From a virus, in IMG/VR virus record IMGVR_UViG_3300034012_002143, positions 1 through 29,820 of that record: DNA of 29,820 nucleotides; one strand, 5' to 3'. Each line of letters starts with the position of its first letter. Positions within the stretch are counted from its first letter, which is position 1. The notes under the pieces were generated by a model, which had not been told where the DNA came from, did no database searches, and saw only the letters and a program-made list of their open reading frames with translations. The position numbers and the translations under genes are program-made. This document shows, in pieces, positions 106 to 9,665 of this stretch.

Positions 106-564
106 CAGCCCTTGCCATGCCATGCCATGCCGAGCCGGGCCAGGCCCTGCCGGGCCGCGCCCTGCCGAGCCGTGCCATGCCGCGCCTCTTCGGTGCAACC
201 GCACCGGGAAGAGCGGCACGCCGCCCAACCCGCTGCATTCGCAGCCCTTGCCTTGCCTTGCCGGGCCTCGCCATGCCTGGCCGCGCCATGCCTCGCCTCT
301 TCGGTGCAACCGCACCGGGAAGAGCGGCACGCCGCCCAACCCGCTGCATTCGCAGCCCTTGCCTTGCCGCGCCTCTCCAAGCCGCGCCTCTCCAAGCCGT
401 GCCTCGCCGAGCCATGCCTTGCCTCGCCACGCTGGTGCAACCGCACCGGGAAGAGCGGCACGCCGCCCAACCCGCTGCATTCGCAGCCCTTGCCTTGCCG
501 TGCCTCGCCGGGCCTTGCCGTGCCGTGCCTGGCCACGCCTTGCCACGCTGGTGCAACCGCACCG
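106..564. repeat. Composite repeat: CCNNG pentamer runs alternating with a conserved hairpin spacer
   Basis: Runs of a degenerate 5-base unit CCNNG (ccttg, ccatg, ccgag, ccggg and so on) occupy about 109-187, 249-300, 359-432 and 490-549. They alternate with a conserved spacer at 192-252, 303-363 and 434-494, with a truncated fourth copy at 550-564. The spacer starts GGTGCAACCGCACC, a 5-bp stem with an AACC loop. In the first two copies the stem extends outward, CTCTTC pairing with GAAGAG. Copies start 111, 131 and 116 bases apart, so the pentamer runs vary while the spacer is constant. A 5-base unit with few stop codons keeps many frames open, so long reading frames here (rich in Ala-Arg-Gly on the minus strand) are probably not genes. 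The rest of 31-608 shows no gene that I can support. Confidence 0.9.
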
Positions 565-608
565 TGCTGCGCCGCAAGCGACGCAGCCCGCTGGAGTCGC
601 GCAACGGC

Positions 609-6039: not shown

Positions 6040-6240
6040 TCACGGCCGCGCCTCGGCAGCCATGGTGCGCAGCGCATCCAGCGTGCTGGCCAGCTGCTCG
6101 ACCAAGCAGACGCAGGCCTGCGGGTCGCGCCGGATGGGCGCCAGCAGCCGCGCCAGCCGGTGCAGCTCGGAAGCATCAAACCCGGCCCCCCGGGCCGCGT
6201 GGCCGGCGATGTGCTGGCCGAGTAGGTGATCAGGAGTCAT
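6040..6240 (-). CDS. Hypothetical phage protein, 66 aa
   Basis: Begins MTPDHLLGQHIAGHAARGA and continues as charged helices (SELHRLARLLAPIRRDPQAC). The ATG at 6238-6240 overlaps the possible start codon of the divergent CII-like gene. There is no clear ribosome site on the minus strand, so the start is uncertain; a TTG at 6277-6279 would give a longer form running into the CII-like gene. It is the third minus-strand gene set between the Cro-like and CII-like genes. No family recognised. Confidence 0.55.
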   Translation of the reverse strand: MTPDHLLGQHIAGHAARGAGFDASELHRLARLLAPIRRDPQACVCLVEQLASTLDALRTMAAEARP

Positions 6241-6556
6241 GGCAGCAATGTCGCAGTCCCTCAGCGAGAAGGCACGCAACCTCGAAGCGCACCTGATGCG
6301 CTTGATTGCTCAGCGATCGCAGACCCGCGTGGCCGACGACCTGGGCGTCGACGACAGCACCGTCAACCGCTGGATCACCAGCGACAGTGGCCTGCGGCGG
6401 GCGTGCGAGGTGCTGGCCGCGCTGCGCCTGCGGCTCAAGCATGACGACGAGCCCGATTTCAGCGACAGCTACGTCGGCGCCTTGGAGACGCTGGCCCGGG
6501 TGCAGCTCGATGAGCGTCGCAAGGTGGCGCGGCCTGGCGTAGGGGAGTCTGCATGA
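6239..6556 (+). CDS. CII-like transcriptional activator
   Basis: About 105 aa, with MSQSLSEKARNLEAHLMRL, then an HTH in TRVADDLGVDDSTVNRWI and a following helix (LRRACEVLAALRLRL). The sequence order and the DDSTVNRW recognition helix match the lambda CII family, whose members bind DNA as tetramers and switch on the establishment promoters for repressor and integrase. Two starts are possible: ATG 6239 (CAGGAG only two bases away) and ATG 6248 (the same motif 11 bases away). The usual family start favours the second. Position between Cro-like and replication genes also fits. Its TGA overlaps the next ATG (ATGA). Confidence 0.78.
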   Translation: MAAMSQSLSEKARNLEAHLMRLIAQRSQTRVADDLGVDDSTVNRWITSDSGLRRACEVLAALRLRLKHDDEPDFSDSYVGALETLARVQLDERRKVARPGVGESA

Positions 6557-6843: not shown

Positions 6844-7058
6844 TGTCTGCAGGCGACCGCTGGCAGCTGCCCGACGGCCGCAAGGCCCTGGAGCTCGACG
6901 GCTCGAAGGGTGGCCTGCTGCGCGTGGCGCCGATCCGCGACGGCTGGCCGTTCCCGTGCCCGCCGGAGGTCGCAGTGCGGCGGCTCTGCCAGCGCCTGCC
7001 GTCGCGCTACCTGCATGGCCAGGTGCCGGCCGAGCCCGTCGAGGAGGCGCGCTGGTGA
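6843..7058 (+). CDS. Hypothetical phage protein, 71 aa
   Basis: Begins MSAGDRWQLPDGRKALELDG and ends EPVEEARW. Start (TGATG) and stop (GTGA) both overlap the neighbouring genes, showing translational coupling from the CII-like gene to the primase. It is a compact, mixed beta/alpha sequence with a conserved-looking RYLHGQVP stretch. It has no cysteines beyond two scattered ones and no membrane segment. Function not recognised. Confidence 0.7.
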   Translation: MSAGDRWQLPDGRKALELDGSKGGLLRVAPIRDGWPFPCPPEVAVRRLCQRLPSRYLHGQVPAEPVEEARW

Positions 7059-8017
7059 CGCCGCAAGACGTGGTGGGCCAGATGATTGCCGCGGGCCTCG
7101 AGGCGCCGCCGCAGCCGCTCGACCTGACCGGCAAGGTGCGCCGCTTCGGGCCGAAGAAGACGCAGTGGTACAGCCTGCGCGAGATCCGCACCGACGGCGG
7201 CAGCTACGTGGTGGTGGGCAGCTTCGGCGACTGGCGCGGGGCCAAGCACCGCGTCGACGTCGACTGGAAAGGCATCAGCCAGGCCGAGCGCGAGGCGCTG
7301 GAAGCCAACCGCCAGGCCGCCGCCGCGGCCGAGCAGCGCGCCCGGGCCGAGGCCGCCGCGCTGGCTGCGTGCACCGCCGCCGATCTGTGGGCACGCGCCG
7401 CGCGCACTGGCGAGAGCGCCTACCTGCAGCGCAAGGGCGTCGAGCCCGAGGCCTGCCGTTACCTGCCTGACGGCGCCATCGTGATCCCGCTGCTGCGCTA
7501 CGACGCGCGGCGAGAGGACGCCCTACGGGGTGCGCAGGTGATCCAGGCCGACGGCACGAAGCGCTTCACCAGGGGCTTCGCCAAGGTGGGCGCGGCGCTG
7601 CGCCTGGGGCATGTGTCTGTGGGCGAGCCCATCCTGATCTGCGAGGGCTACGCGACCGGGCTGACGCTGCGGATGGCGGTAGACCGCCGGCTGCCGGTGT
7701 TCGTGGCCCTGGACGCCGGCAACCTGCTGCCGGTGGCCGAGCTGCTGCGCGGCATGTACCCCGACAGCCGGCTGCTGATCTGCGCCGACGACGACTTCCG
7801 CACCAAGGGCAACCCCGGGCGTGAGAAGGCGCACAAGGCGGCCCGCACGGTGCCCGACACGGCCTACACCTGGCCCTACTTCCGCCCAGGCAGCCGTGGG
7901 CCGAAGGACACCGACTTCAACGACCTGCACGCGCGTGAAGGCCTGCGCGTCGTGCGCCGGCAGCTCATGCACGTGCTGCCCCTCATCGGTTCGGATTTGT
8001 TGAATGCCGCAGCCTGA
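7055..8017 (+). CDS. Toprim-domain DNA primase
   Basis: 320 aa from the GTG at 7055-7057, which overlaps the previous stop and follows GAGGAG. The N-terminal third holds a small beta-rich DNA-binding-like domain (KTQWYSLREIRTDGGSYVVV) and an Ala/Glu-rich helix. The Toprim core is clear: GEPILICEGYATGLTL near residues 190-205 gives the catalytic Glu, and RLLICADDDFR near 240-250 gives the Asp triad. A zinc-binding primase domain is not obvious. It would synthesise primers for phage replication together with the helicase encoded immediately downstream, whose start overlaps its end by 14 bases. Confidence 0.85.
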   Translation: MTPQDVVGQMIAAGLEAPPQPLDLTGKVRRFGPKKTQWYSLREIRTDGGSYVVVGSFGDWRGAKHRVDVDWKGISQAEREALEANRQAAAAAEQRARAEAAALAACTAADLWARAARTGESAYLQRKGVEPEACRYLPDGAIVIPLLRYDARREDALRGAQVIQADGTKRFTRGFAKVGAALRLGHVSVGEPILICEGYATGLTLRMAVDRRLPVFVALDAGNLLPVAELLRGMYPDSRLLICADDDFRTKGNPGREKAHKAARTVPDTAYTWPYFRPGSRGPKDTDFNDLHAREGLRVVRRQLMHVLPLIGSDLLNAAA

Positions 8018-9461
8018 GAACGTCATCCCGATGCCAGAGACTCCCCCACCCTCGAATGGCGGCGCTGCCGCGCCCAAAGGGGGGAGGGGCCAGCAGCGCA
8101 AGCGAAAGACCGGGATCAACCTGGGCAACTACTCGCGGCTCATGGAGGGCTTTGCGCTGATCTACGGCACGAAGACCGCCTGGGACGAGGAGACGCACCG
8201 GATCGTCACCATCGAGTCGCTGCGCCTGGCGATGACGTCGGACAGCGTGAAGGCCTGGCTCAACACGCCGACGCGGCGCATGGTGCTGCCCGAGCAGCTG
8301 CTGTTCGAGCCCGGGCAGGTGCTGCCCGAGGGCTGCATCCAGCTGTTCGCCGGCCTGGAGCTGGAGGCGTTGCAATGCGGCATCGAGGACGTGCGGCCGA
8401 TGCTGGACCTGCTCAAGCACCTGTGCTCGCAGAGCGCGCCGACGCCCGAGGGTGTACGCGACGTGATGCACTGGATCCTGTGCTGGCAGGCGCTGCCGCT
8501 GCAGAACATCGGGGCCAAGATGCAGACGGCGGTGGTGATGCACGGCCCGCAGGGCACGGGCAAGAACCTCTACTGGGACGTGTGGCGCGACATCTACGGC
8601 CGCTACGGCGTGACGGTCGGCCAAGTCGAGCTCGAAGACAAGTTCAACGGGTGGCTCTCGCAAAAGCTGGCGATCATCGGTGACGAGGTGGTCAGCCGGC
8701 AGGAGATGTTCCACAACAAGAACCGGCTCAAGCTGATCGTCACCCAGGAAACCAAGTTCCCCATCCGCGAGATCCAGCAGCCGACACGCTGGGAGAGCAA
8801 CCACGCCAACGTGGTGTTCCTGAGCAACGAGAGCCAGCCCCTGGCGCTCGAGGAGCGCGACCGGCGCTACATGGTCATCTACACGCCGCTGGCCGACGAA
8901 ACAGGCCTGTACGCCCGCGTGCGCGACTTCCTCGCCAACGACGGCGCCCGCAAGTGGCTGCACTTCCTGCAGCAGTACCCGACGAAGGGCTTCGACCGCC
9001 ACACCAAGCCGCTGATGACGGCGGCCAAGACGGCGCTGGTGCAGGCCGGCTGGCGGCCCGAGGAGCGCTTCGCTCACGAGTGGATGGATGGCCTCCTGCC
9101 CCTCCCGATCAGGGTCTGCTCCGCGGAGCAGCTGTACCGCGCGTTCCGGCGCTGGTGCGACGTGAACGGCGAGCGCTTCCCGCCGGCCCAGGGCAAGTTC
9201 ACCGAGAGCGTGCGGCGCTGGCTGGCCGAGAACTCTGGCGCTGACAGCGACGGCCCGCGGCTCATCTACAAGGTGGTCGCCCTCGACCGCGAAGACGGCG
9301 CCGGCCGCAAGGCGGTGCGCTGCTGGCTGCCGGCCAAGCTGCGGCCGCCCGAGGGCGTCAGCGAGGGCGCCTGGGCCGCCGACAGCGTGGCCACCTACGA
9401 GCAGGCGCTGCGCCAGTACACGCGTGCCACCAGCGGGAGCTTCGACGATGCAGCGCAGTGA
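8004..9461 (+). CDS. DUF5906-type replicative helicase/ATPase
   Basis: 485 aa. The Walker A motif MHGPQGTGKNLYWDVW lies near residues 179-195 and Walker B, KLAIIGDEV, near 221-229. Then come sensor-type segments (RLKLIVTQETKFPIREIQQP and NVVFLSNESQPLALEERDRR, with an arginine-finger-like DRR). This organisation is that of the SF3-like helicases found after Toprim primases in many phages. The first 40 residues are Pro/Gly/Lys-rich and disordered. The C-terminal part (EQLYRAFRRWC) resembles a primer-helicase C-terminal winged domain. With the primase it should open and prime the origin. A symmetric repeat array starts 11 bases after the stop. Confidence 0.86.
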   Translation: MPQPENVIPMPETPPPSNGGAAAPKGGRGQQRKRKTGINLGNYSRLMEGFALIYGTKTAWDEETHRIVTIESLRLAMTSDSVKAWLNTPTRRMVLPEQLLFEPGQVLPEGCIQLFAGLELEALQCGIEDVRPMLDLLKHLCSQSAPTPEGVRDVMHWILCWQALPLQNIGAKMQTAVVMHGPQGTGKNLYWDVWRDIYGRYGVTVGQVELEDKFNGWLSQKLAIIGDEVVSRQEMFHNKNRLKLIVTQETKFPIREIQQPTRWESNHANVVFLSNESQPLALEERDRRYMVIYTPLADETGLYARVRDFLANDGARKWLHFLQQYPTKGFDRHTKPLMTAAKTALVQAGWRPEERFAHEWMDGLLPLPIRVCSAEQLYRAFRRWCDVNGERFPPAQGKFTESVRRWLAENSGADSDGPRLIYKVVALDREDGAGRKAVRCWLPAKLRPPEGVSEGAWAADSVATYEQALRQYTRATSGSFDDAAQ

Positions 9462-9471
9462 CCGCCGCGCG

Positions 9472-9665
9472 TTACGCGCCCGCCCTCCTGTTACGCGGCC
9501 CATTACGCGCAGAACCCGCGCCGTTACGTGCGTTACGCGTGTTACGGGGCTCCGCGCGCATACACGTGTGCGCCCGCGTGTGCATGTGAAGCCCCAACGC
9601 GTAAACCCCGTAACGCACGTAACGACGCGGGTTTCACGCGTAACGCTCGCGTAACGCCCGCGTAA
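9472..9665. repeat. Mirror-symmetric array of 12 TTACG elements; candidate phage origin
   Basis: Six TTACG copies start at 9472, 9491, 9503, 9524, 9533 and 9542. Six inverted CGTAA copies start at 9600, 9609, 9618, 9639, 9650 and 9661. The four inner pairs share exactly the same axis, at 9573. Within them, 9513-9537 and 9609-9633 form a 25-bp inverted repeat with one mismatch. GGGGCT and AGCCCC (9546-9551, 9590-9595) and an ACACGTGT palindrome (9562-9569) fill the centre. The array lies immediately after the helicase gene, where replication proteins of several phages recognise iterons. Origin function is inference; a dyad regulator site or boundary element is the alternative. Confidence 0.85.

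Follow-up and report, generated by a model that had tools for sequence, protein, structure and literature searches.

Anatomy of the array and its gene context

The question raised by this locus is why twelve short repeats should face each other directly behind a phage helicase gene. In the window, by which we mean the whole 29,820-nt stretch analysed, six TTACG elements face six CGTAA elements at 9472-9665 (no strand assigned), in agreement with the original prediction, and all 12 positions were located. The left arm (9472-9546, + strand) has TTACG at 9472, 9491, 9503, 9524, 9533 and 9542 with gaps of 19, 12, 21, 9 and 9, and the right arm (9600-9665, - strand) has CGTAA at 9600, 9609, 9618, 9639, 9650 and 9661 with gaps of 9, 9, 21, 11 and 11, that is, 11, 11, 21, 9 and 9 when read from the outside inward. 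The recomputed positions placed the inner four pairs (pairs 3-6, numbered from the outside) on a common centre at 9573.0 with mirrored spacings of 9, 9 and 21, and the 25-bp inverted repeat was recovered with 24 of 25 matches, both as first described. The exact symmetry claimed for the whole 194-base block held for these four pairs but not beyond them; the second pair was centred at 9572.5 and the outermost at 9568.5, and the outermost left gap of 19 had no mirror, its right counterpart being 11. Only one TTACG and one CGTAA were found in the rest of the 29.8-kb window.

Between the stop of the helicase gene (9461) and the following ORF (9683) there is a gap of 222 bp, which holds the array, the first TTACG beginning 10 bases past the end of the stop codon. 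Of 2000 dinucleotide shuffles of this gap, 13 gave a facing count of 12 for the best of any 5-mer, so the count by itself is only moderately rare, suggestive and not decisive. These shuffles speak for the reading that the repeats are incidental, or the remnant of a coding sequence; that reading is contradicted by dozens of relatives in which the geometry is kept although the letters have changed (see below), and we give it next to no credence. It is because of this conservation in helicase relatives that the array stands well above chance, and on its anatomy and conservation we regard it as a candidate replication origin.

The centre of the array (9547-9599, no strand assigned) contains a 21-nt run of alternating purines and pyrimidines, matched by 0.17% of the 51-bp windows of the same sequence. 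It is a candidate melting region that is not AT-rich, with a GC content of 0.69 against 0.67 for the region. A significantly long alternating tract, each judged against its own locus, was present in 57 of 64 array loci from close and distant families, and no tract of that kind was found in SaPI PT1028, P4, THSA-485A or Mcat9. Alternating tracts such as those at the array centres are prone to form Z-DNA, and the tract may act as a melting site or in a Z-DNA role.

The gene upstream (8004-9461, +) encodes an SF3-type helicase of the P4-alpha type with a DUF5906 domain (Pfam PF19263), a candidate self-loading initiator. The best structural match of its model was the NrS-1 helicase (6k9c), followed by the SaPI5 primase-helicase (7ola), with PriRep1 lower down. 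A C-terminal winged-helix domain (residues 366-443; 9099-9332, +) was predicted from the AlphaFold2 model and, with the co-variation reported below, is the candidate reader of the iterons. The split partner of the helicase is a TOPRIM primase (Pfam Toprim_3) at 6956-8017 (+; ORF as listed, start codon not fixed), and the early region also carries repressor-like, Cro/YdaS-like and CII-like (6239-6556) genes. Beyond the array lie the genes for the small and large terminase, portal, capsid/protease, major tail protein, tape measure, tail fibre and endolysin. No direct nucleotide match to known phages was found.

Conservation of the array beside related helicases

Relatives of the helicase were drawn from genome and viral collections, and 108 were kept as non-redundant at 90%. 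At each locus the 400 bp after the helicase stop codon were scanned, with 3733 windows from the same loci as controls. At least nine facing copies were obtained at 80 of 108 loci against 31 of 3733 control windows, and at 79 of 108 loci the count was higher than in any of the locus's own control windows. The modal total of the best facing 5-mer was 12 (27 loci), and the commonest split was 6+6 (20 loci); the totals ranged from 5 to 16 and two loci had none, so 12 is the mode and not a rule among these 108.

Conservation of the spacing in related phages had been named as a check on the original prediction, and when it was run the spacing was found to be kept while the letters had changed. In the first 34 relatives the dyad and its spacings were usually preserved, with letters such as GTTACGC, GTTTCGC, GTTGCGC, GTTCCGC, GTCCCGC and CTCCCGG. 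Spacings of 9, 9, 21 and 11-12 accompanied lineage-specific letters (TTACG, GTTGC, TCCCG, GTACC, TGTGC and others), and distant helicase families showed similar layouts with the unrelated letters TGTGC, GTTAG, CCACG, ACTAC and GACAC. Among 59 close family members, the distance between elements 3 and 4 was 21 in 94 of 105 arms and that between elements 4 and 5 was 9 in 100 of 105, within spacing ranges bounded by the fitting procedure; layouts of exact 5-mers, read with no spacing model, concurred with the fitted spacings. The centre varied from 46 to 111 bp in the same 59 members. Comparable arrays were present in the gap 3′ of the helicase gene in phages of Pseudomonas, Moraxella and Thermoanaerobacterium.

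We also performed a pattern-only scan with the TTACG triplet alone, blind to the helicase, which returned seven loci where five or more copies on one side face five or more on the other. All seven adjoin a helicase of this superfamily, six of them a member of the window's family and the seventh a DUF927 helicase; two of the seven (L058 and L069) are contigs already in the relative set. Weaker facing TTACG clusters were seen in AT-rich phages (L044 at 7380, L088 at 2630 and L056 at 9710) and also in L054; at L054 and L056 the adjacent ORF that was examined showed no helicase domain.

Several smaller features of the relatives deserve mention. Element 4, the outermost of the inner triplet, remains GTTACTT where the others have become TCCCG, GTACC or TTGCG (L001, L002, L005, L028, L188 and others, usually in both arms), and may be a site that is weaker or read in another way. 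A second conserved symmetric motif lies in the 21-bp spacer that separates elements 3 and 4, where each arm frequently reads CTAAGTNNTTGT (many loci, for example L021 and L028). An extreme change of letters was seen at L019 (a close relative with 62% helicase identity, the helicase match ending at 2990), where the dyad reads TTGCACGG and TTATTGG. In Stenotrophomonas phage S1 (L155), a 16-copy GTGCG array follows the helicase stop at about 2454 and overlaps gp2, a hypothetical gene annotated as beginning at that stop; this gene call may be spurious.

A strand of the array folds at -114 kcal/mol (z -6.9 against shuffles), which would suit a transcript forming a giant hairpin, a terminator or attenuator between the replication and late genes. 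It would also suit a hairpin that the two arms co-vary between loci and that the spacer letters are partly symmetric as well (0.64-0.75). However, the spacings of the two arms were identical at only 10 of 49 loci, while a continuous stem would favour identity, and the symmetry of the elements (0.87) exceeds that of the spacers. A stem needs neither six direct copies per arm nor letters that track a helicase residue, and one element is inverted within the arm in phage L106, P4 and SaPI. The RNA hairpin, although possible in energy terms, accords poorly with arms that differ in spacing, with the direct copies and with the co-variation with the helicase, and is in our judgement very unlikely. An Rfam search gave nothing above threshold, only microRNA matches caused by the inverted repeat.

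Co-variation of the iteron letters with the helicase

Whether the array co-varies with the helicase gene was the second check carried over from the original prediction, and the letters were found to follow the C-terminal winged helix. Motif similarity correlated with similarity of the C-terminal winged-helix region at a partial rho of 0.49-0.50 given the ATPase domain, and with that of the N-terminal part at 0.04. The observed correlation was reached by 0 of 500 free permutations; with the shuffling of motifs confined to helicase clades it was reached 17 times in 500, and a large part of the signal therefore lies between clades. The free Mantel permutation was accordingly set aside as proof, being undercut by the within-clade shuffling.

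At the level of single residues, a pattern at residue 424 was spotted by eye first and an unbiased column scan was run afterwards, in which this residue ranked first of 375 helicase columns for iteron base 4 (z 11.5, next 6.4). Val424 occurred with A at base 4 in 31 of 35 cases, Gln424 with C in 5 of 6, and Ser, Thr, Asn or Ala424 with G in 5 of 5; the exceptions to the association are L020, L203, L205, L206, L006 and L004. In the window the residue is Val424 (GTG, 9273-9275, +). On a tree from which the C-terminus was left out, base 4 underwent six changes, and up to four supported independent pairs were concordant (in most pairings) and none discordant, too few for significance with a minimum p of 0.125. 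In the AlphaFold2 model, residue 424 falls in the wing strand, after the presumed recognition helix, where it may touch DNA. With some 200 bp separating the codons of the wing from the array, the two could be inherited together through recombination and so give an appearance of co-evolution; such linkage has to be taken seriously as an alternative to direct reading.

The co-variation also bears on the idea that the array is an operator for a phage regulator (the CII-like, the Cro/YdaS-like or the repressor protein), acting as an early/late switch, in autoregulation of the replication genes, or solely as a replication control locus in the manner of P4 crr. In favour of this, the array is placed where the early genes give way to the late ones, the gene of a CII-like regulator is found upstream, and regulation is also possible for origin arrays. 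Against these points, the letters follow the helicase C-terminus and the arrays adjoin helicases in very different phages. We therefore hold an operator to be very unlikely as the explanation of the array; a role as operator for another regulator may be a second function. The dyad of iterons loaded by the adjacent helicase, which the original prediction had put forward as one option, is well supported by the conserved spacing, the co-variation and the known relatives, whereas its other options, an early/late switch and a CII-like binder, gained no support.

Comparison with known origins and a proposed mechanism

The original prediction knew of no described phage origin with this layout, a statement that did not survive comparison, as the same kind of design is seen in the P4 ori, at SaPI/PICI origins and at the origin annotated in Sfi21. 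SaPI/PICI origins (PMC6092414, PMC7581432; tested on PT1028) lie, as in the window and likewise in its relatives, directly 3′ of the helicase/initiator gene, and carry short iterons in two oppositely oriented sets, with an outer triplet, inner sites 9 bp apart and letters that vary among elements. The C-terminal domain of Cch2 binds iterons downstream of its own gene (PMC7581432), two hexamers are loaded head-to-head at SaPI origins (PMC9894130), and the fold of the SaPI5 primase-helicase (7ola) is matched by the model of the window helicase. In contrast, SaPI/PICI iterons flank an AT-rich region and the window has the alternating purine-pyrimidine tract instead; compared with SaPI, its array is 6+6, with no inverted element in the arms and only 21 bp between triplets. 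A PICI is moreover a satellite that needs the head and tail of a helper phage, while the window has its own head, tail and lysis genes. Because the centre is not AT-rich, the array is better said to work like a PICI origin than to be one.

The domains that are fused in P4 alpha (TOPRIM, DUF5906 and D5) have their counterparts in the window as Toprim_3 and DUF5906 on two ORFs. The P4 ori has a single arm of six iterons (annotated repeats, >10>11>22<43>10>), distant from alpha and with one iteron inverted, whereas the window array has two arms and none inverted; the P4 type I iterons, TGTTCACC, in their 10/11/22(inverted)/43/10 arm differ from the window in letters as well as in arm. The arms of SaPI PT1028 and of phage L106 both read >9>11>23<44>9>, closely resembling the P4 ori arm, with different iteron letters. 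The origin of the Streptococcus thermophilus phage Sfi21 (an annotated 302-bp non-coding region) is again directly 3′ of a Pox_D5/DUF5906 protein and has facing repeats (GTTAC), but its centre is AT-rich and its array of 11 copies less regular. At the SV40 origin, two SF3 hexamers are loaded head to head by short sites that face each other (PMC9894130), as proposed here; unlike the window, its DNA is not homologous and T-antigen binds through an N-terminal origin-binding domain.

We consider the array very probably to be a phage replication origin on which two head-to-head helicase hexamers load themselves, a reading that draws on the observed anatomy, conservation, helicase association and co-variation. 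Seen as such, it is an origin variant with no inverted element in its arms and a centre that is not AT-rich, and not an undescribed system. Binding, hexamer loading and origin firing would follow the precedents of SaPI, P4 and SV40. The helicase encoded directly upstream would bind each 5-7 bp iteron through its C-terminal winged-helix domain, and about six molecules per arm would form a closed hexamer, giving one on either side of the centre, face to face. These two hexamers would then move toward one another and open the central tract, with the TOPRIM primase and host polymerase coming next. The conserved signal would be the number, orientation and spacing of the sites, and their letters a lineage-specific key that drifts with the DNA-binding end of the helicase. 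The GC skew fits the origin reading poorly without deciding against it: immediately to the right of the array (about 10 kb) it passes from slight positive values to negative ones, with the cumulative maximum near the array, the sign being opposite to that usual at an origin.

A broader proposal, which we hold with somewhat more doubt than belief, is that a single origin architecture extends across DUF5906/DUF927 phages, PICIs and P4. It would comprise roughly one iteron for each subunit of the two head-to-head hexamers, a frozen geometry with free letters, a reading of these letters in part by wing residue 424, whose identity would set base 4, and, in many phages, an AT-rich melting element replaced or joined by a Z-DNA-prone alternating purine-pyrimidine tract at the centre. 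Arrays of this type are widespread beside phage helicase genes, and the natural variation of letters at fixed geometry makes it directly testable how many sites are needed by a double hexamer that loads itself, and in what way such a helicase reads its origin. A rule for computational origin finding in phages also follows, namely to inspect the gap 3′ of a P4-like helicase gene. Apart from the array, GCC-rich tandem repeats with periods of 5, 15, 111 and 131 bp were noted at the left end of the window (113-570).
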